DNA of 64,000 bases from Deltaproteobacteria bacterium (GTDB lineage Bacteria; Desulfobacterota; Binatia; UBA12015): the NCBI GenBank assembly GCA_016874795.1, contig VGTG01000011.1:1-64000 (forward strand), read 5' to 3'. The translations under genes and the position numbers were made by a program. Below are positions 31,727-41,314 of the stretch, one piece after another. Positions within the stretch are counted from its first letter, which is position 1; the number at the start of each line of letters is the position of its first letter. The notes below the pieces were generated by a model, which saw only the letters and a program-made list of their open reading frames with translations, was not told the origin of the DNA and ran no database searches.

Positions 31727-31755
31727 CGTTTGTGCACCTCTGCCCCTTTCTGCTT

Positions 31756-31784
31756 TTGACCCACCTGGGGACGGTGTGCATAAT
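31756..31784 (+). promoter_or_regulatory. Sigma70-type promoter of the oxidase operon
   Basis: TTGACC (31756-31761) and CATAAT (31779-31784) are spaced by 17 bp, about 45 nt ahead of the coxB start. This is the best -35/-10 pair seen in the window. Confidence 0.75.
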
Positions 31785-31833
31785 CGCGCCCCGCGGTTCG
31801 GACCACGGATGTGGGTCGGGCGTAGAGGGCAGT

Positions 31834-32934
31834 ATGGATCGAATCGCTTCAGCAGCGGGGTTCCGTTCGGCGGCCTCGCGGCGCCGGGGGCTCGCCAAAG
31901 CGATGGGGCTCCTCGCCGGAGCGGCGGTCCTCTGCGCCACCGGCGTGGCGATGGCCGAGCCGACGACGGGCCGGCCCGTGTTCGATCAGGTTTCGAACAT
32001 GTTCCAGCCGGTCTCCGTGCCGGCTGCGAAGATCCGCGATCTTGCGTTACTCGTTCTCGCGATCTGCGGCGGGATCTTCGTCGTCGTCGGTGGCCTGATC
32101 GCCTACACGCTGATCCGCTTCCGTGCGCGTCCCGGCGACGAGCACCGCGAGCCGCCGCAGGTGTACGGCAGCAGCAACATCGAGGCGGCCTGGACGATCG
32201 TCCCGGTGATCATCGTCGTCGTCCTTTTCCTCGCGACCGCGCGGACGATCAACGAGCTCGAGCTGAAGGAGCCGCCCGAGAGCGCGCTCCAGGTCACCGT
32301 CGTCGGCCACCGCTGGTGGTGGGAGTTCCAGTATCCCGAGTACGGAATCGTCACCGCGAACGAGCTGCACGTGCCGGCGAGCACGCCGGACGCGCCGCGG
32401 CCGACGTTCCTCTGGCTCGAGTCCGTCGACGTCGCGCACAGCTTCTGGGTGCCGCGGCTCGCCGGCAAGACGGACGTCATCCCGAATCGCCGCAACACGC
32501 TCTGGCTCGAGACGGCGCAGCCCGGGCTCTATCTCGGCCAGTGCGCCGAGTACTGCGGCACGCAGCACGCGCACATGCTGCTGCGCGTCTACGTGCACAC
32601 GCCGGAGGACTTCGCGCGCTGGGTCGAGGAGCAGAAGGCGCCCGAAGCCGAGGTCGCGAGCGTCGCGGCCGGTCGTGACCTCTTCCAGCGGACCGCGTGC
32701 ATCAACTGCCATGCCGCCTCTGGCACGGTCGCGGACGGAACCTTCGGACCGAGCCTCTCGCACCTGATGAGCCGCGAGACGATCGGAGCCGGCGTCGCGA
32801 TGAACACGCCCGACAACCTGCGCGCCTGGATCCGCGATCCGCAGACGATGAAGCCCGGCGTGCGCATGCCGGACATGAAGCTCGCCGACCACGAGGTCGA
32901 CGCGATCGTCGACTATCTCGTGACGCTGCGCTAG
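31834..32934 (+). CDS. coxB: Cytochrome c oxidase subunit II with fused cytochrome c (caa3)
   Basis: This 366-residue subunit II has an N-terminal signal (ending ATGVAMAE), two membrane helices (residues 70-140), the aromatic electron-entry patch HRWWWEFQYPEYG, and the CuA site HSFWVP ... GQCAEYCGTQHAHM with all ligands. A C-terminal heme c domain with CINCH near residue 288 and axial Met in RMPDMKLADHE is the mark of caa3-type oxidases. The ATG at 31834 follows the promoter above. First gene of the terminal oxidase operon coxBAC. Confidence 0.95.
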   Translation: MDRIASAAGFRSAASRRRGLAKAMGLLAGAAVLCATGVAMAEPTTGRPVFDQVSNMFQPVSVPAAKIRDLALLVLAICGGIFVVVGGLIAYTLIRFRARPGDEHREPPQVYGSSNIEAAWTIVPVIIVVVLFLATARTINELELKEPPESALQVTVVGHRWWWEFQYPEYGIVTANELHVPASTPDAPRPTFLWLESVDVAHSFWVPRLAGKTDVIPNRRNTLWLETAQPGLYLGQCAEYCGTQHAHMLLRVYVHTPEDFARWVEEQKAPEAEVASVAAGRDLFQRTACINCHAASGTVADGTFGPSLSHLMSRETIGAGVAMNTPDNLRAWIRDPQTMKPGVRMPDMKLADHEVDAIVDYLVTLR

Positions 32935-32962: not shown

Positions 32963-34639
32963 ATGACGGCGATCGACGGAAGCGTTCTCCCGGCCGAAGC
33001 CGCGGCGCGGACCTCGTTCTGGATCCGCGCGCACGAGTGGGCAACCACCGTCGATCACAAGAGGCTCGGGCTTCTCTACATCTCCTCCGGCCTCGTGTTC
33101 TTCCTGATCGCCGGCCTCGAGGCTTCGGCCATCCGCGCGCAGCTCGCCTTCGCGAACAACGACCTCATCGGACCGAACACCTTCAACCGTCTGATGACGG
33201 TGCACGGCACGACGATGGTGTTCTTCGTCGGCATGCCGATCTTCTTCGGCTTCGGGAACTACCTGATCCCGCTGATGATCGGGGCGCGCGATCTCGCCTT
33301 CCCGCGGCTGAACGCGTTCGGCTACTGGCTCTTCCTGTTCGGCGGGCTGCTCTTCTACTTCAGCTGGATCGGCGGCGACGGGCTCTACGGGACCGGCACG
33401 GCGCCCGACGTCGGATGGTTCGCGTATTCGCCGCTGACCTCACCTGCGTTCTCGCCGGGAAACTCGACCGACTACTGGATCCTCGGGATCATGGTGGCGG
33501 GGTTCGGCAGCACGGCGACGGCGCTGAACTTCGTCGCGACGATCCTCTGCATGCGCTGTCCGGGCATGACGCTCGGCAAGATGCCGCTCTTCGTGTGGAT
33601 GATGCTCGTCAACGGCTTCCTCGTCCTCGTGGCGTTGACGCCTCTGACCGCCGCACAGGTGATGCTCCTCTTCGACCGCTTCCTGGACTCGCACTTCTTC
33701 GATACCCAGGCGGGCGGCTCGGCGGTCCTCTGGCAGCACTTCTTCTGGGTCTTCGGGCATCCCGAGGTCTACATCCTGATCCTTCCCGCGTTCGCGGTCG
33801 CTTCGGAGGTGACGCCCGTGTTCTCGCGGAAGCCGATCTTCGGCTACGAGATCATGGTCGCCGCGACGACCGGGATCGGCTTCATCAGCCTCGGCGTCTG
33901 GGCGCACCACATGTTCACGGTCGGGCTCTCCGGACCGGTGAACACTTTCTTCACCGCTTCGACGATGGCGATCGCGGTGCCGACGGGGATCAAGATCTTC
34001 AACTGGCTCGGCACGATGTGGGGCGGACGGATCCGCCTGCGCATGCCGATGCTCTGGGTCTGCGCGTTCCTCTTCGAGTTCGTGATCGCGGGCTTGACGG
34101 GCGTGATGCTCGCGGTCGTGCCGTTCGACTGGCAGCTGAGCGACTCCTATTTCGTCGTCGCCCACTTCCACTTCGTCCTGATCGGCGGGCTCCTCTACAA
34201 CATCTTCGCGGGCATCTACTACTGGTTCCCGAAGGCGACGGGGAAGATGCTGAGCGAGCGCCTCGGCCGCTGGCACTTCTGGGTCTTCGTCGCGGGCTTC
34301 AACGTGACGTTCGGAACGATGCACTTCCAGGGGCTGCTCGGGATGCCGCGGCGGATCTACACGTACGATCCCGGACGCGGCTGGGACTTGCTGAACCTGA
34401 TCACGTCGCTCGGCGTCATCCTGCAGGCGATCGGCATCCTGTTCTTCCTCGTGAACGTCCTCTGGTCGCTGCGCCGCGGCGAGGACGCCGGGCAGGATCC
34501 GTGGGACGCCTGGACGCTCGAGTGGTCGACCACGTCGCCGCCGCCCGCCTACAACTTCGAGAAGATCCCCGTCGTGCAGAGCCGCAGGCCGCTCTGGGAT
34601 CTGAAGCACCCGAACGACCCCGACTGGCGGTACGAATGA
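32963..34639 (+). CDS. ctaD: Cytochrome c oxidase subunit I
   Basis: This 558-residue heme-copper oxidase subunit I has twelve helices. Visible are the heme a ligand in MTVHGTTMVFFVG, the CuB histidine with crosslinked tyrosine FWVFGHPEVYILILP, the CuB pair WAHHMFT, and the two heme ligands in VVAHFHFVLIGG. This is the type A oxidase arrangement. It reduces O2 to water with proton pumping in the inner membrane. A GGAGGGGACGAGGGGGAGC purine-rich leader provides its ribosome site. Confidence 0.96.
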   Translation: MTAIDGSVLPAEAAARTSFWIRAHEWATTVDHKRLGLLYISSGLVFFLIAGLEASAIRAQLAFANNDLIGPNTFNRLMTVHGTTMVFFVGMPIFFGFGNYLIPLMIGARDLAFPRLNAFGYWLFLFGGLLFYFSWIGGDGLYGTGTAPDVGWFAYSPLTSPAFSPGNSTDYWILGIMVAGFGSTATALNFVATILCMRCPGMTLGKMPLFVWMMLVNGFLVLVALTPLTAAQVMLLFDRFLDSHFFDTQAGGSAVLWQHFFWVFGHPEVYILILPAFAVASEVTPVFSRKPIFGYEIMVAATTGIGFISLGVWAHHMFTVGLSGPVNTFFTASTMAIAVPTGIKIFNWLGTMWGGRIRLRMPMLWVCAFLFEFVIAGLTGVMLAVVPFDWQLSDSYFVVAHFHFVLIGGLLYNIFAGIYYWFPKATGKMLSERLGRWHFWVFVAGFNVTFGTMHFQGLLGMPRRIYTYDPGRGWDLLNLITSLGVILQAIGILFFLVNVLWSLRRGEDAGQDPWDAWTLEWSTTSPPPAYNFEKIPVVQSRRPLWDLKHPNDPDWRYE

Positions 34640-34658: not shown

Positions 34659-35249
34659 ATGACGACGGCTTCCGCGACTCCCCCCGCTCCGGCCGAATGG
34701 ACGTTGCCCTCGCGCGGCCGCGTCGGGATGGCGTGTCTCATCCTGACCGAGTCCGCCTTCTTCGCGATCTTCATCGCGGCGCACCTCTTCTACATCGGGA
34801 AGAGCCTGAATCCGCCGTACGCGCGCGACGTGCTCGAGCTGCCCGTCCTGAACACGATCTGCCTCCTCTCGAGCAGCATCACGATCACGCTCGCTCTGCG
34901 TGCCCTTCGCCGCGGCGCCGTGGGCACGTTCTCGTGGCTCTGGCTCGCGACGATCCTCCTCGGGCTCGAGTTCCTGATCGGCACGGGCCTCGAGTGGTAC
35001 GGGCTGATCTATCGCGACGGGCTCACGATCGACACGAACCTCCTCGGAACGACCTTCTACTCGCTCGTCGGCTTCCATGCGGCGCACGTCACGCTCGGAT
35101 TACTGATGCTTTCCGGGACGCTGCTCTTCGTCGTCCTCGGCTGGGCGGGAGAGCGCGACGTCGAGCGGATCGACGTCCTGTCGTGGTATTGGCACTTCGT
35201 CGATGCGATCTGGGTCGTCGTGCTGACGGTCGTGTACGTGATCGTCTGA
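34659..35249 (+). CDS. coxC: Cytochrome c oxidase subunit III
   Basis: This 196-residue protein has five membrane helices and belongs to subunit III in the short five-helix form seen in caa3 and bacterial SoxM-type oxidases. Key segments are MACLILTESAFFAIFIAAHLFY, the glutamate-bearing LLGLEFLIGTGLEW, FYSLVGFHAAHVTLGLLML and YWHFVDAIWVVVLTVVYVIV. It stabilises proton uptake by subunit I. It lies 19 bp after ctaD. Confidence 0.94.
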   Translation: MTTASATPPAPAEWTLPSRGRVGMACLILTESAFFAIFIAAHLFYIGKSLNPPYARDVLELPVLNTICLLSSSITITLALRALRRGAVGTFSWLWLATILLGLEFLIGTGLEWYGLIYRDGLTIDTNLLGTTFYSLVGFHAAHVTLGLLMLSGTLLFVVLGWAGERDVERIDVLSWYWHFVDAIWVVVLTVVYVIV

Positions 35250-35266: not shown

Positions 35267-36115
35267 GTGGCAGCAGAGCGAGAGGCGAAGCACGCGGGCG
35301 AGGGAGGGATCGAGCTCCCGTCGCCGACGCCGTGGCCGCTCCTCGCCGCGTTCGGCATGACGCTCGGGTTCGCGGGGCTCGTGACGCATCCGATCGTCTC
35401 GATGGTCGGCGGCGTGTGCTTTCTCTTCGGCGGCGTCGGCTGGTGGCGCGAGGTGCTGCCCGTCGCACACGAAATCGAGGTCCCGCTCGCCGCACCGGCG
35501 CGGCGCGCGCGGCTGGTCGAGCCCGTTCCGGAGACCGTCGATCATCTCGAGCTCGGCGAAGGCGGACACCGGATGCGCCTCCCGACGCACGTGTTCCCGC
35601 TCTCCGCGGGCATCCGCGGCGGGATCGCGGGCGGAATCGCGATGGCGGCGCTCGCGGAGCTCTACGGGCTCCTCGTGCACCAGAGCCTCTGGTATCCGGT
35701 GAACCTGCTCTCCGCGGCGGCGATCCCGTCGCTCGCGAATGCTTCGACGGAGCAGCTCGCGCAGTTCAGCACGGAAGGGCTCCTCGTCGGCGTGATCGTG
35801 CACGTGCTCTTCTCGCTGCTCGTCGGGCTGCTCTACGCGGTGATGCTGCCGATGTTCCCGCGGCATCCGGCGATCCTCGGCGGGATCGTGGCACCACTCC
35901 TCTGGACCGGCCTTCTCTGGACGAGCCTCGGCGTGATCAACCCCGCTCTGAACGAGCGCATCGCGTGGGGCTGGTTCGCGGCTTCGCAGCTCGCCTTCGG
36001 TCTCGCCGCGGGGTTCGTCGTCTCGAAGATGGAGCGCATCGCGACGCTGCAATCCGCGGCGTTCGCGATCCGCGCCGGCCTCGAGCTGCAGTACGACGAG
36101 GAGGGGAAGGAGTGA
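35267..36115 (+). CDS. Oxidase-operon membrane protein, subunit IV-like N-terminus
   Basis: This 282-residue protein starts at a GTG with GGAGG ahead. Residues 20-65 form two helices resembling a small oxidase subunit IV (WPLLAAFGMTLGFAGLV, VCFLFGGVGWWREVLP). A hydrophilic middle with paired His (HEIEVP, DHLELGEGGHRMRLP) follows, and then four further helices from residue 105 on. The C-terminal half is of unknown family. Its position between coxC and the cytochrome c gene and its overlap with the latter (GTGA) say it is an oxidase or supercomplex subunit or assembly factor. Confidence 0.75.
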   Translation: MAAEREAKHAGEGGIELPSPTPWPLLAAFGMTLGFAGLVTHPIVSMVGGVCFLFGGVGWWREVLPVAHEIEVPLAAPARRARLVEPVPETVDHLELGEGGHRMRLPTHVFPLSAGIRGGIAGGIAMAALAELYGLLVHQSLWYPVNLLSAAAIPSLANASTEQLAQFSTEGLLVGVIVHVLFSLLVGLLYAVMLPMFPRHPAILGGIVAPLLWTGLLWTSLGVINPALNERIAWGWFAASQLAFGLAAGFVVSKMERIATLQSAAFAIRAGLELQYDEEGKE

Positions 36116-36849
36116 GCCGCTTCGCGCTGCTCTCCCTCCTCGTGCTCGCCGGAGGTCTCTCCGGCTGCGACTCGCTTCCCGGCAAGCCCACCGAGGCGGA
36201 GCGTCCCGTCCTGCCGTCGAAGGTGATGGACTTCGCGAAGCTGTACGACGCGAACTGCGCGGGCTGCCACGGTGCGAACGGACAGCTCGGAGCGGCGCGC
36301 GCGCTGAACGACGCGCTGTACCTTGCTTGGGCCGGCGACGACGAGCTCGTCCGCGTCACCGCGAACGGTGTTCCGGGCACGGCGATGCCCGCGTTCGCGG
36401 TGAGCCAGGGCGGCGGTCTCACGGACGAGCAGATCACGGCACTGATCGACGAGATGGTCACGCGCTGGGGCGGGAAGGCGTCCGACGTCGACGGCTTGAA
36501 CCTGCCGCCGCACGAGGCGTCGCTCGGTGATCCCGAGAGCGGGGCGCAGACGTACGCGACCTTCTGCGCCGCTTGTCACGGTGCGGACGGCACGGGCGGG
36601 ACCGCTCCCGGATCGATCGTCGACGGAAGCTATCTCGCTCTCGTGAGCGATCAGGCGCTCCGCTCGATCGTCGTCGTCGGCCGGAAGGATCTCGGCATGC
36701 CGGACTGGCGTCACTTGATCCCTGGCCGGCCGATGTCGGACGCGCAGATCGCCGACGTCGTCGCGTGGCTCGCTTCGAAGCGCGTTCCATTCCCGGGCCA
36801 GATGGGCGGCCTGGGCCAGAATTCGCAGGAGGGGAAGACGGATGGCTGA
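36112..36849 (+). CDS. Diheme cytochrome c lipoprotein
   Basis: This 245-residue lipoprotein has signal and lipobox GGLSGC (cysteine about residue 18), then two cytochrome c domains with CAGCH (near residue 48) and CAACH (near residue 153). Axial methionines are likely in TAMPAFAV and LGMPDWRHL. Anchored to a membrane, it can shuttle electrons between the cytochrome bc complex downstream and the caa3 oxidase upstream. GTG start overlaps the previous stop; its own end overlaps the Rieske start by eight bases. Confidence 0.93.
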   Translation: MSRFALLSLLVLAGGLSGCDSLPGKPTEAERPVLPSKVMDFAKLYDANCAGCHGANGQLGAARALNDALYLAWAGDDELVRVTANGVPGTAMPAFAVSQGGGLTDEQITALIDEMVTRWGGKASDVDGLNLPPHEASLGDPESGAQTYATFCAACHGADGTGGTAPGSIVDGSYLALVSDQALRSIVVVGRKDLGMPDWRHLIPGRPMSDAQIADVVAWLASKRVPFPGQMGGLGQNSQEGKTDG

Positions 36850-37375
36850 GGGCGGACCGCAACCGGGCGCGCCGGCGCCGGCACCGCCGGTCACGCGGCG
36901 CGGCGTCCTGATCGGGCTCGGGGTCGCGCTCAACGTGGTCGGTGCCGCGCTGATCGGGGTCCCCGTGATCGGCTACATCGCGAGCGCGCTGCGCACCCGC
37001 TCGTACCAGGCGTGGATCCCGCTCGGGAAGCTCGCCGTGTTCCCCGAAGGCCAGACGCGCCTCGCCACGTATACGAATCCGTTCACCGTGCCGTGGGACG
37101 GCGTGACGGCGAACGTGCCGTGCTGGGTCCGCCGTATCGGCGCAGAGAAATTCCAGGTGTTCGCGATCAACTGCGCGCACCTCGGCTGCCCGGTGCGCTG
37201 GTTCCCCGAGTCGGGCCTCTTCATGTGCCCGTGCCACGGCGGCGTCTACTACGAGGACGGCTCGCGCGCTTCCGGTCCGCCGCCGCGCGGCCTCTTCGAG
37301 TACGAGTACGAGATCCGCGGCGACGAGCTCTGGGTCCGCGGCGGTCAGCTTCCGACGCTCGCGGGGCCGGTGTGA
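36842..37375 (+). CDS. qcrA: Rieske iron-sulfur protein of the bc complex
   Basis: This 177-residue Rieske protein carries a Tat-like signal anchor (TRRGVLIGLGVALNVVG) and binding loops NCAHLGCPVRW and FMCPCHGGVYY. Both Cys-x-His and Cys-x2-His pairs that hold the 2Fe-2S cluster are present, with a C-terminal Pro-rich turn GPPPRGLFEYEYE. It accepts electrons from quinol in the bc complex and swings to heme c. The ATG overlaps the diheme cytochrome gene, and cytochrome b follows. Confidence 0.95.
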   Translation: MAEGGPQPGAPAPAPPVTRRGVLIGLGVALNVVGAALIGVPVIGYIASALRTRSYQAWIPLGKLAVFPEGQTRLATYTNPFTVPWDGVTANVPCWVRRIGAEKFQVFAINCAHLGCPVRWFPESGLFMCPCHGGVYYEDGSRASGPPPRGLFEYEYEIRGDELWVRGGQLPTLAGPV

Positions 37376-37391
37376 CGGGCGGGTGCAGGCG

Positions 37392-38870
37392 ATGAGCGCT
37401 CCGGCGCAGCCGAAGGGCCGCCTCGCGCGCGTCGGCGAGTGGCTCGACTTCCGGTTGAAGTTCCGCGAGTCGATCCTGCCGCCGATCGCGCACCCGGTGC
37501 CGAAGAGCTCGGCGAGCTGGTGGTACGTCTTCGGCAGCGCGACGCTCCTCTGCTTCGTCGTCCAGATCGTGACGGGCATGTGCCTGGCGCTCGTCTACGT
37601 CCCTTCCGCGTCCGAGGCGTGGACGAGCCTCGAGTACCTGAACTACGTCCAGCCGTTCGGCTGGTTCCTCCGCTCGCTGCACTCGTGGGGCTCGAACTTC
37701 ATGGTCACGCTGATGACCATCCACCTCGTGCAGGTCTATCTCTTCGGCGCCTACAAGTATCCGCGCGAGCTGACGTGGGTCGTCGGCTGCGTCCTTTTCC
37801 TCTGCACGCTCGGCATGGCGTTCACCGGGCAGGTGATGCGCTTCGATCAGGACGCGTACTGGGGCCTCGGCATCGGCGTCGCGATGATGGGGCGCTTCCC
37901 CGTGATCGGCGAGTCGCTCGTGCACCTCGTCCTCGGCGGGCCGATCATCGGCGCGGAGACTCTCTCGCGCTTCTTCACGCTGCACGTGTTTGCCGTCCCC
38001 GGGCTCTTGCTGATGCTCATCGGCGTCCACCTCTGGCTCGTGATCAAGGTCGGCATCAACGAATGGCCGATGCCGGGCCGGCTCGTGACGCGCGAGCGCT
38101 ACTCCGACGAGTACCACGAGCTCGTCGCGAAGGAGGGCGAGCCCTTCGTCCCGCAGGGCGTGCAGAAGGACATCGTGTTCGCGGGCATCGTGCTCGTCGC
38201 CCTGTTCGCGTGCGCGGCGGTCTTCGGGCCCGCGGGACCGAACGGGCAGCCCGATCCGACGCTGATCGAGACGGTGCCGCGGCCGGACTTCTTCTTCCTC
38301 TCGCTCTTCGCCGTGTTCGCGCTGCTGCCGCCCTACCTCGAGACGCCGCTGATCCTGACGGCGCCCGTCGTCCTCGTCGCTCTCGCGTTCCTGCTGCCGT
38401 TCTACTCGAACACCGGCGAGAAGAGCTGGAAGCGTCGCCCGGGTGCGTGGATCCTGGTGATCGTCGTGTTCCTCTGCCTGGGTACGCTGACGTGGCTCGG
38501 CCTCTCCTCGCCGTGGTCGCCGGACATGAGCGCCTGGAGCGGCACGCCGACGCCCGTCGAGTACGTGAAGGGGCGGACGCCGCTCGAGCTGCAGGGTGCG
38601 CTCGTGTTCCAGGCGAAGCAGTGCCGGAACTGCCACAGCCTCGGCGGCGAAGGCGGCATGCGCGGTCCGGCGCTCGACGACGTCGCGACGGTGCAGACGC
38701 GCGACGAGATCGTGCGCCAGGTCCTGCAGGGCGACGGCAACATGCCGGCGTACGGCAAGAACCTGAAGCCGCAGGAGGTGACGGCGCTCGTCGCGTTCCT
38801 CACGGCGATGCACCCGGCCGGAGAGCCCGCGCAGCGAAGCGCGACGATCCCGGCTCGTCCCGGAGGTTGA
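37392..38870 (+). CDS. Cytochrome b fused to a cytochrome c domain
   Basis: This 492-residue protein has a full-length cytochrome b, with eight helices and heme ligands in SLHSWGSNFMVTLMTIHLVQVY and FFTLHVFAVPGLLLMLIGVHLW. The quinol-oxidation motif appears as RPDFFF in place of the usual PEWY. A C-terminal cytochrome c domain with CRNCH near residue 415 and axial Met in NMPAYGKNL is fused in the same chain. This is the b-c fused bc complex, with the Rieske gene upstream. The internal ATG at 37392 is used; GTG at 37383 is possible. Confidence 0.92.
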   Translation: MSAPAQPKGRLARVGEWLDFRLKFRESILPPIAHPVPKSSASWWYVFGSATLLCFVVQIVTGMCLALVYVPSASEAWTSLEYLNYVQPFGWFLRSLHSWGSNFMVTLMTIHLVQVYLFGAYKYPRELTWVVGCVLFLCTLGMAFTGQVMRFDQDAYWGLGIGVAMMGRFPVIGESLVHLVLGGPIIGAETLSRFFTLHVFAVPGLLLMLIGVHLWLVIKVGINEWPMPGRLVTRERYSDEYHELVAKEGEPFVPQGVQKDIVFAGIVLVALFACAAVFGPAGPNGQPDPTLIETVPRPDFFFLSLFAVFALLPPYLETPLILTAPVVLVALAFLLPFYSNTGEKSWKRRPGAWILVIVVFLCLGTLTWLGLSSPWSPDMSAWSGTPTPVEYVKGRTPLELQGALVFQAKQCRNCHSLGGEGGMRGPALDDVATVQTRDEIVRQVLQGDGNMPAYGKNLKPQEVTALVAFLTAMHPAGEPAQRSATIPARPGG

Positions 38871-38931: not shown

Positions 38932-39024
38932 GAGAGGGGCGCTGCCCCTCTCCTCCACGCGGCAAAGCCGCGCGGAGCCTCCACACCCCGCTCGCTGTCG
39001 CTCGGCCGCGCGCTTCGCGCGCGG
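38932..39024. repeat. Three consecutive GC hairpins ahead of the CtaG fusion
   Basis: Perfect stems GAGAGGGGC/GCCCCTCTC (38932-38952), CGCGGC/GCCGCG (38958-38972, extended by CTCC/GGAG) and CCGCGCGC/GCGCGCGG (39006-39024) follow each other in the 164-bp gap. The last overlaps the first two bases of the GGAGGG ribosome site of the next gene. This may be an intergenic palindromic repeat and terminate or attenuate the operon. Confidence 0.65.
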
Positions 39025-39034
39025 AGGGTTCGAT

Positions 39035-41314
39035 GTGATTTCACCGGCGCTGCTGTCGTGGAGCTTCGAGCCGGGGCTGATCGTCTCGCTCGCCGCTCTC
39101 GTCTGGGTCTATCTGCGCGGCCGGCGCGACCTCGCGATCGATCTGCCCGAGCGATACCCGACGTGGCGTGCCGTCGCCTTCGTCGCTGGTGCGGTGACGC
39201 TCTACGTCGCGCTCGCTTCACCGCTCGACGCGTTCGCGGGTCTCCTGCTGCAGGTCCACATGACGCAGCACCTCCTCCTCATGCTGGTCGCACCGCCGCT
39301 CCTCTGGCTCGGAGCGCCGCAGCTTCCGCTCCTGCGGGGCCTTCCGGACGTCGTGCGCCGGGATGGACTCTCTCCGTTCCTCGCATGGCACGGCCTGCAT
39401 CGGGTCGTCGACGTCCTGACGCATCCGCTCGTCGGATGGATCGCGTTCGTCACGACGATGTGGGCGTGGCACGTGCCGTGGCTCTACGAGGCGGCGATCG
39501 CCGATCCGTTCCTGCACGAGATCGAGCACTTCTCCTTCTTCTTCGCAGCGCTCCTCTTCTGGTTCCCCGTCGTGCAGCCGTACCCGAGCCGGCCGCGCTG
39601 GTCGCGCTGGGCGATGGTGCCGTACCTCGTCCTCGCGGACCTGCAGAGCACGCTCTTCGCGGCGTTGCTCGCGTTCTCGGATCGCGTGCTCTACCCGCTC
39701 TACGAGCGCGCGCCGCGTCTCGGCGGGATCGGCGCGCTCGAGGACCAGGCGACGGCCGCGGCGATCATGTGGGTGCCGGGGTCGATCGCGCTCCTCGTCC
39801 CAGTGGTGTTGATCGTGCGTCGCCTGCTCGCGGCGGAACTCGTGCGGCCGGGCGAGGCGCCCGTGCACGTTGCCGCCTCGCGCGTCCGTCGAGAGCGACG
39901 TCCGATCGATCTCCTGCGCTGGCCGGTCGTCGGCGCGCTGCTCCCGCGGCGCGGCTTTCGCTTCGCGATGCAGTCCGTTCTGCTCGCGCTCGCGGTACTC
40001 GTCGTGCTCGACGGCTTCCTCGGACCCGAAGCCGGCGCGATGAACGTCGCCGGCGTCCTGCCGTGGACCTACGGCCGCGCCTTCGCGGTGATCGGGCTTC
40101 TCGTCGCCGGAAACGTCTTCTGCTTCGCGTGTCCCTTCATGCTGCCGCGCTCGCTCGCTCGCCGCTTCTTGCCGGCCGGACGAGCGTGGCCGCGCGCGCT
40201 GCGCACGAAGTGGACGGCGGTCGTGCTCTTCGCGCTCTTCCTCTGGGCGTACGAGGTGTTCGCGGTCTGGGACAGCCCGTGGTGGACCGCGTGGATCGTC
40301 GTCGGGTACTTCGCGGCGGCGCTCGTCGTCGACGGCTTCTTCCGCGGCGCGAGCTTCTGCAAGTTCGTGTGTCCGATCGGGCAGTTCGACTTCGTCGCCT
40401 CGCTCGTCTCGCCGCTCGAAGTACGTGCACGCCGGACCGACGTCTGCGGCTCGTGCACGACGAGCGACTGCATCCGCGGCAACGAGCGCTCCCGCGGCTG
40501 CGAGCTCGACCTCTTCCTGCCGGCGAAGGTGGGAAACCTCGACTGCACGGCGTGCCTCGACTGCGTCCGCGCCTGTCCGCACGATAACGTCGGCATCTTC
40601 GCGCGGATGCCCGCGGCGGAGCTCGTCGCCGACCCGCCGCGCGCTTCGGTGGGACGACTCGGGACGCGGCTCGACGTCGCCGCGTTCGCTTCGATTCTGG
40701 TCTTCGGCGCGTTCGCGAACGCGGCGGGGATGGTGCAGCCGGTCCTCGCCGCGGAGCGCGCGATCGCTGCGGACCTCGGTCTCGGCTCGACGCTCGTGCC
40801 GACGACGGTGCTCCTCGTGCTCGGGCTCGTGGCCGGCCCCGTGGTGGTCGCCGCGGGCTCCGCATGGCTCGGGACGCGCTTCGCGGGGATCGGGATCGAC
40901 GGGCGGACGTTCTTCTGCCGTCTGGCGCTCGCGCTGGTTCCGCTCGGCGTCGCGATGTGGGCCGCGCACCTCCTCGGACATCTCGTGATGGGGCTCGCGA
41001 GCGTGCTTCCCGTCGGGATGCGCGGGCTCGCGGACCTCGGCTTCGCGGGCGTCGGCGCACCAGATTGGTCGCTCGCGCACGTCATGCCGGGATCCACCGA
41101 GACGCTGACGACCGTGCAGATCGTCCTTCTCGATCTCGGCCTCCTCGTGAGCCTCTACCTCGGATGGAGGGTCGCGCGGCAGCACGCTTCGCGTGCCGCG
41201 ATCGCCGCGCGTGCTCTCGCGCCGTGGAGCGTGGTCGCGAGCGCGCTCTTCGTCGTCGGCGTTTGGGTGCTCTTTCAGCCGATGGAGATGCGCGGCATGC
41301 TCCTTCCCGGATGA
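39035..41314 (+). CDS. CtaG assembly factor fused to NapH-like polyferredoxin
   Basis: This 759-residue polytopic protein combines two families. Residues 1-285 are a caa3_CtaG oxidase assembly protein with QVHMTQHLLLMLVAPPLLWLG and TTMWAWHVPWLYEAAI ... HEIEHFSFFFAALLFW, seven helices and conserved His/Met copper-type ligands. Residues 310-745 are a NapH/NosR-like membrane polyferredoxin, with CFACP (C363, C366), CKFVCP (C442, C446), further Cys pairs (CGSC, DCIRGN, RGCEL) and a 4Fe-4S motif CTACLDCVRACP from C504. The GTG at 39035 has GGAGGG ahead. It lies beside the oxidase and bc genes and is coupled to the next gene (ATGA). A role in CuB insertion with redox input is inferred. Confidence 0.86.
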   Translation: MISPALLSWSFEPGLIVSLAALVWVYLRGRRDLAIDLPERYPTWRAVAFVAGAVTLYVALASPLDAFAGLLLQVHMTQHLLLMLVAPPLLWLGAPQLPLLRGLPDVVRRDGLSPFLAWHGLHRVVDVLTHPLVGWIAFVTTMWAWHVPWLYEAAIADPFLHEIEHFSFFFAALLFWFPVVQPYPSRPRWSRWAMVPYLVLADLQSTLFAALLAFSDRVLYPLYERAPRLGGIGALEDQATAAAIMWVPGSIALLVPVVLIVRRLLAAELVRPGEAPVHVAASRVRRERRPIDLLRWPVVGALLPRRGFRFAMQSVLLALAVLVVLDGFLGPEAGAMNVAGVLPWTYGRAFAVIGLLVAGNVFCFACPFMLPRSLARRFLPAGRAWPRALRTKWTAVVLFALFLWAYEVFAVWDSPWWTAWIVVGYFAAALVVDGFFRGASFCKFVCPIGQFDFVASLVSPLEVRARRTDVCGSCTTSDCIRGNERSRGCELDLFLPAKVGNLDCTACLDCVRACPHDNVGIFARMPAAELVADPPRASVGRLGTRLDVAAFASILVFGAFANAAGMVQPVLAAERAIAADLGLGSTLVPTTVLLVLGLVAGPVVVAAGSAWLGTRFAGIGIDGRTFFCRLALALVPLGVAMWAAHLLGHLVMGLASVLPVGMRGLADLGFAGVGAPDWSLAHVMPGSTETLTTVQIVLLDLGLLVSLYLGWRVARQHASRAAIAARALAPWSVVASALFVVGVWVLFQPMEMRGMLLPG

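Follow-up and report, generated by a model that had tools for sequence, protein, structure and literature searches.

The window, a stretch of 64,000 nucleotides, carries on its forward strand a respiratory operon for a caa3-type oxidase and a cytochrome bc complex, followed by a gene in which a CtaG domain continues into a membrane polyferredoxin (Table 1). The latter gene starts 164 nt after the cytochrome b–c gene, which ends at 38870, and overlaps the next gene, encoding a YtkA-like protein, by 4 nt (41311–41314). This agrees with the initial annotation, made from the sequence alone, which had placed the fusion after the caa3 and bc genes and in overlap with a YtkA/FixH-like gene. The proposed boundaries also hold: a GTG at 39035 preceded by GGAGGG and a TGA ending at 41314 delimit 759 codons. 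Upstream, the conserved membrane protein encoded at 35267–36115 is found in most relatives at 35–70% identity and is probably an undescribed oxidase subunit or assembly protein.

Table 1. Genes of the caa3–bc operon and features of the CtaG–polyferredoxin fusion (positions in the window; residue numbers refer to the fusion protein).
Feature	Position	Strand	Basis and remarks
coxB, oxidase subunit II with CuA and cytochrome c domains	31732..32934	+	Pfam; start possibly 31903
coxA, oxidase subunit I (carries CuB)	32963..34639	+	Pfam COX1, E 5.1e-156
coxC, oxidase subunit III	34659..35249	+	Pfam COX3
Conserved membrane protein of the operon	35267..36115	+	Weak oxidase subunit IV match (E 0.04)
Di-domain cytochrome c	36112..36849	+	Pfam
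Rieske protein	36842..37375	+	Pfam
Cytochrome b with C-terminal cytochrome c domain	37383..38870	+	Pfam
Shine-Dalgarno-like GGAGGG, 6 nt 5′ of GTG	39023..39028	+	Read from sequence
CtaG–polyferredoxin fusion gene, 759 codons, GTG start, TGA stop	39035..41314	+	Single frame
Caa3_CtaG domain, residues 24–265, 7 predicted transmembrane helices	39104..39829	+	PF09678, E 4.7e-56; model; topology
HMxQH motif (H75, M76, Q78, H79), candidate copper ligands near outer face	39257..39271	+	Invariant in 61 sequences; topology
H146, H161, H165 of CtaG half	39470..39529	+	Invariant (61 sequences)
Flexible cytoplasmic linker between halves, residues 267–286	39833..39892	+	pLDDT < 50; 12 K/R in loop
Polyferredoxin half, residues 287–759, 9 predicted transmembrane helices and cytoplasmic 4Fe-4S loop	39893..41311	+	TIGR02163, E 3.5e-8; hhalign
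FCxxCP motif (C363, C366)	40121..40132	+	Invariant in 61 fused sequences and 15 standalone relatives
FCKxxCP motif (C442, C446)	40358..40372	+	Invariant in fused and standalone forms
CxxCx4C...GC motif (C471, C474, C479, C489)	40445..40501	+	Invariant in fused forms
Ferredoxin motif CTxCxDCxxxCP (C504, C507, C510, C514)	40544..40576	+	Invariant in fused and standalone forms
M566, predicted outer face	40730..40732	+	Invariant; topology
HxxxH (H645, H649), outer half of transmembrane helix	40967..40981	+	61/61 fused, 14/15 standalone; topology
C-terminal QPMEMRG (M750, M752), predicted outer face	41279..41296	+	Conservation (61 fused, 15 standalone)
YtkA-like partner: signal peptide, 8-strand beta domain, C-terminal transmembrane helix	41311..41832	+	4-nt overlap; model

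The union of a CtaG domain and a polyferredoxin half in one frame is real, as the initial annotation had claimed for a CtaG and a membrane 4Fe-4S protein. The N-terminal half matches the Pfam profile Caa3_CtaG (PF09678) with 190.3 bits against a gathering cut-off of 27.7, and scores 74.8 bits with the Bacillus-type CtaG equivalog TIGR02737, whose cut-off is 279.35. For the second half, the NapH/MauN profile TIGR02163 aligns to residues 352–519 (E 3.5e-8; 33.3 bits versus a cut-off of 213), TIGR02745 for CcoG/FixG gives 8.8 bits versus 316.7, and hhalign comparisons yield E 5.6e-9 for NapH-like proteins and E 9.1e-9 for CcoG. Judged by these profiles, the second half is related to NapH and CcoG and belongs to neither curated family; both halves of the fusion are members of known superfamilies. 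Pfam reports no domain after residue 265, FtrD-like (PF10080) included, so standard annotation names the whole protein CtaG only and the fusion stays hidden.

An AlphaFold2 model of the fusion (mean pLDDT 89.8, pTM 0.78) has low confidence only at the linker 267–286. The predicted topology has 16 helices with both termini outside; in this arrangement 35 Lys/Arg residues lie in the inner loops versus 6 in the outer ones, and the 110-residue Fe-S loop, likewise placed inside, contributes 14 more. The 4Fe-4S loop and both CxxCP-type motifs are thereby predicted on the cytoplasmic side, whereas M566, H645/H649, the C-terminal QPMEMRG and the ligands of the CtaG half are predicted to lie at the outer face or close to it. 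A whole-protein fold search found no match to the fusion in the PDB, and sequence profiles run against the PDB detected nothing beyond generic ferredoxins.

Conservation was assessed over 61 fused sequences. In the CtaG half, H75, M76, Q78, H79, H146, H161 and H165 are invariant and D237 nearly so. The second half contains 12 invariant cysteines (363, 366, 442, 446, 471, 474, 479, 489, 504, 507, 510 and 514), enough for three 4Fe-4S clusters, along with invariant M566, H645, H649 and M750; M752 is conserved at 98%. Standalone relatives of the second half, 15 proteins of about 30% identity, fully keep 11 of these cysteines, the remaining one, C474, being retained in 8/15 and replaced by D, E or N in 7/15. 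The Met/His residues are kept in 13 to 14 of the 15 (M750 in 14, M752 in 13). The shared Cys and Met/His set indicates that this signature is a property of the second half itself, which forms a separate family and may merit its own name.

The other genera of the window's family have the fusion intact, as do two further families of the class. Among GTDB representatives, 366 relatives were identified, from which the best 80 by similarity to the fusion were fetched; this ranking means that the set does not measure how frequent unfused CtaG is in the phyla concerned. All 80 carry both halves in one frame, the single stop counted in one of them (L128) being the true 3′ end of the gene, and they come from at least four phyla (Planctomycetota, Verrucomicrobiota, Acidobacteriota and Myxococcota/Deltaproteobacteria). 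Together with the intact fusion in the other genera, this makes the fusion more than a local accident and rules out a missed stop or start as its source; the halves are not separate in all relatives, which the initial annotation had named as grounds for refutation.

Among the same best 80 of 366, a cytochrome b gene lies upstream in 70/75 testable loci and coxA in 45/48, and a YtkA-like gene follows in 61/71; a similar small secreted protein occupies the downstream position in 9 of the 10 loci where no YtkA-like gene was detected. In most of them the operon has the order coxBAC–cytochrome c–Rieske–cytochrome b and ends in the fusion. This conserved context ties the fusion to the caa3 oxidase. 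Acidobacteriaceae KBS 83 and KBS 96 possess a second, unfused CtaG as well. Two records carrying the fusion operon are titled Klebsiella pneumoniae (L096) and Candidatus Kuenenia (L140); the fused CtaG domain of L096 is identical to that of a genome from the window's family (G004), so the title of L096 is probably wrong.

The YtkA-like partner is predicted with a pLDDT of 91.9 as a beta sandwich between a signal peptide and a membrane anchor. Its best Foldseek matches in the PDB are copper proteins: CrdA of H. pylori (E 5.1e-5), FtrA/P19 (E 1.9e-4), PmoD (E 4.8e-4) and FetP. The profile YtkA (PF13115) is matched by 11 of 21 partner homologues, with a best E of 2.1e-4, and FixH (PF05751) weakly by 4; the window's own protein matches neither of the two. 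The homologue alignment contains no invariant His, Met or Cys.

The second half also occurs away from CtaG. In genomes of family f2 of the same class (L177–L181), its homologue bears a YtkA-like domain at its N terminus (hhalign E 4.5e-5, probability 69%). The gene adjoins one for an FTR1 iron permease that carries an FtrD-like domain, along with ABC genes of the MacB/FtsX type. Such standalone proteins of about 675 aa, ending in QPMGMRHGM or similar, are found in L177–L181, L055 and L062, several of them beside the FTR1–FtrD-like and MacB/FtsX ABC genes; these loci look like a variant FTR1/P19-type metal uptake locus. Other standalone relatives adjoin a Tat-exported molybdopterin oxidoreductase accompanied by NapG- and NapH-like proteins. 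In L057, L058, L059 and L061 the oxidoreductase has 908 aa, and the loci additionally hold a small secreted protein with the motif HHILGxPHY and a large multihaem cytochrome c. The HHILG protein matched YtkA-like proteins with a probability of 5%, which does not establish a relationship. The joint presence of the second half and a YtkA-fold protein in other loci suggests a module that recurs in metal and redox settings, CtaG being one of its partners.

Nine genomes of family f9 and one of f8, from the same class as the window, possess the same operon type with a CtaG that lacks the polyferredoxin half and shares about 46–54% identity with the fused CtaG domain (L157–L164, L169 and L146; in L146 the CtaG gene is not adjacent to the cox genes). 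As in the fusion operons, it follows cytochrome b in 8 of the 9 f9 loci and in the f8 locus, as far as the available sequence of each locus extends. In the f9 loci neither a polyferredoxin nor a YtkA-like gene adjoins CtaG; the two seem to have been gained or lost together. The polyferredoxin half is thus an add-on without which caa3 assembly as such can proceed, and CtaG alone can evidently serve the oxidase of a caa3–bc operon in some bacteria. In the CtaG tree the unfused f9 forms fall within the fused ones. A single fused clade is nevertheless not rejected by an AU test (p 0.475), so either order of fusion and separation is compatible with the data.

The fusion protein is the only Caa3_CtaG in the window's genome, which encodes three further COX1-family proteins. 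Two of these additional COX1-type genes (contigs C49 and C163) have an SCO-family match 1.4 to 4.8 kb away; with the sole CtaG in the window operon and SCO near other oxidases, copper factors are possibly split between the oxidases. Cox11-type CtaG (PF04442) was not detected by profile search in any of the 11 fusion-bearing genomes, 10 of which have SCO genes. CcoG is absent from 10/11 genomes with the fusion and from 19/20 with CtaG alone. As the f9 and f8 genomes also lack it, no complementary pattern of loss points to a cupric reductase, and the idea of the fusion as a CcoG replacement is unsupported.

Several known systems resemble parts of this protein. Like B. subtilis CtaG (PF09678), it has a 7-helix domain with conserved His and Asp residues and is encoded by the last assembly gene of a caa3 operon, but a typical CtaG stops after this domain, whereas the fusion runs on into the 9-helix polyferredoxin half. 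CcoG/FixG/RdxA (TIGR02745) is likewise a membrane polyferredoxin with CxxCP/CxxxCP and ferredoxin-type cysteines (corresponding to C363/C366, C442/C446 and C504–C514), and its gene also follows an oxidase operon and precedes a gene for a small secreted domain (FixH there, YtkA-like here). However, hhalign aligns CcoG with the 4Fe-4S region only; unlike CcoG, the fusion has a C-terminal part of its own with HxxxH and QPMxMRG, is joined to CtaG and serves a caa3 oxidase. NapH/MauN and NosR-type proteins (TIGR02163) share the Cys motifs, and NapH/MauN is the best profile match; in contrast to them, the second half has no FMN domain and carries five extra C-terminal helices with the Met/His signature.

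Precedents for the combination itself are found in proteins of other architecture. C. glutamicum CtiP, which is needed for the oxidase, joins CtaG to a copper-supplying membrane module, the copper importer CopD (PMC9145763), where the present fusion has an Fe-S electron carrier. A. fulgidus CopZ unites a copper chaperone with a Cu(II)-reducing Fe-S domain (PMC7558416), an activity that we only infer for the fusion; CopZ is soluble and cytosolic, and its folds are unrelated. The FTR1-associated protein of f2 (L177–L181) is homologous to the second half of the fusion and has an almost identical set of Cys and Met/His residues, but contains a YtkA-like domain instead of CtaG and lies beside an iron permease.

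We propose that the fusion may be a copper-assembly factor of the caa3 oxidase with an inbuilt Cu(II) reductase that feeds Cu(I) to CtaG, a reading that we hold to be about evenly balanced between right and wrong. Electrons would enter at the cytoplasmic ferredoxin-like loop, with reduced ferredoxin, an NAD(P)H route or quinol as candidate donors, and would pass through up to three 4Fe-4S clusters, C471–C514 and then C363/C366/C442/C446 at the inner face. Cu(II) would be reduced to Cu(I) at an outer-face Met/His site formed by M566, H645, H649, M750 and M752. From there Cu(I) would be handed to the outer-face ligands of the CtaG half (H75, H79, H146, H161, H165 and D237), which would insert it into the oxidase, most likely at CuB of subunit I, while the secreted YtkA-like partner might hold or present the nascent site or a copper-bearing partner. 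This scheme predicts copper binding, a direction of electron flow and a target site, whether CuB or CuA. On the modelled topology, electrons travelling from the inner clusters to the outer site would require an intermediate carrier, or else the distance is shorter than the topology suggests.

Copper reduction during assembly is the reading that agrees best with the conservation of the Met/His residues, with a topology that puts them on the outer face and with a partner folded like copper proteins. The single frame in 80/80 relatives, the conserved operon context, the lack of Cox11 in 11/11 fusion genomes, the single CtaG of the window's genome and the precedents of CcoG, CopZ and CtiP also count in its favour. 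Counting against it are the f9 and f8 operons that do without the half, the missing complementary loss of CcoG and the lack of a PDB fold match for the fusion. Standalone relatives, moreover, lie by an FTR1 permease or a molybdopterin enzyme, not by copper oxidases, and no His, Met or Cys is invariant among the YtkA-like proteins. A role of Caa3_CtaG at CuB is unproven in its own right (PMC9145763). The initial annotation had suggested that reducing power is channelled to copper during assembly, and this part stands as the best fit, the activity itself being a prediction. Its statement that oxidase maturation and electron delivery are normally separate was too strong, as CcoG, the polyferredoxin of cbb3 assembly, has already been reported as a cupric reductase (PMC7558416).

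The second half could instead act as a quinol-linked, NapH/NosR-like subunit joining the quinone pool to the bc–caa3 chain, with CtaG fused to it for co-assembly only. NapH-like systems are thought to carry quinol electrons over the membrane to many oxidoreductases (PMC8238504), which would suit the best-scoring profile, the position in a respiratory operon and the standalone relatives next to a molybdopterin enzyme with NapG/NapH. We nevertheless find this unlikely: the operon already contains a complete cytochrome bc complex, occurs elsewhere without the polyferredoxin half and encodes no periplasmic flavin, haem or ferredoxin acceptor with the fusion, and neither the Met/His set nor the fusion to an assembly factor rather than a catalytic subunit would be explained. 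The closest architecture outside CtaG, a YtkA-like domain with the same polyferredoxin by FTR1–FtrD-like and MacB-type ABC genes, hints at another function, in which the second half and the YtkA-like protein form a redox-driven module for import or release of copper (or iron), related to the FTR1 system and feeding CtaG. The FtrA/P19-like fold of the partner and the fusion of CtaG to a copper importer domain in C. glutamicum (PMC9145763) point the same way. Against it, no permease gene was found as a constant member of the fusion operons, Pfam detects no known transporter domain in the second half, and the fusion gene is tied to one oxidase operon, so that such an uptake role appears rather unlikely.

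It is also conceivable, if improbable, that the electrons go to the nascent oxidase itself, either to haem a3/CuB or to the cysteines of CuA, and that a site receives its metal only when reduced. Loading of CuB and CuA requires reduced partners in both cases, the CtaG half would dock the polyferredoxin on subunit I, and the operon link to the oxidase is consistent with such priming, which however leaves unexplained why the Met/His residues are conserved in standalone relatives without an oxidase. Moreover, reduction of the CuA thiols is usually ascribed to Sco, for which 10 of the 11 genomes have genes. Finally, the Fe-S half might gate the CtaG half as an oxygen or redox sensor; Fe-S clusters can sense O2, and the two halves are connected by a flexible cytoplasmic stretch. 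We consider this very improbable, given that a sensor would need far less than nine additional transmembrane helices plus Met/His residues resembling ligands, and that relatives in other contexts resemble electron carriers; the coupling of CuB insertion to redox status, put forward in the initial annotation, found no support of its own.

Beyond the proposed copper reductase of the caa3 operon, we tentatively speculate that the second half could represent a so far unnamed, portable family of trans-membrane metal reductases, with up to three 4Fe-4S clusters inside, a Met/His copper site outside and a partner of YtkA/P19 fold. Somewhat doubtful as this is, its members would be fused to CtaG for caa3 oxidases and to a YtkA-like domain beside FTR1 for iron uptake, and the former would combine Cu(II) reduction and CuB insertion in one polypeptide. 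No CtaG–polyferredoxin fusion was reported in the open-access literature searched, including reviews of the diversity of oxidase assembly and of CtaG evolution.

For oxidases that use Caa3_CtaG it is not settled how CuB obtains its copper or which redox state the metal then has, and the fusion makes this question directly testable. Cultured bacteria are at hand for the purpose (Blastopirellula marina, Lacipirellula limnantheis and the Acidobacteriaceae KBS strains). A natural control already exists in the lineage whose operon of this type has an unfused CtaG. Despite being hidden in annotation, the fusion is widespread in several phyla of aerobic bacteria, many of them from soil and marine habitats, and suggests that copper may be reduced and loaded by a single machine.
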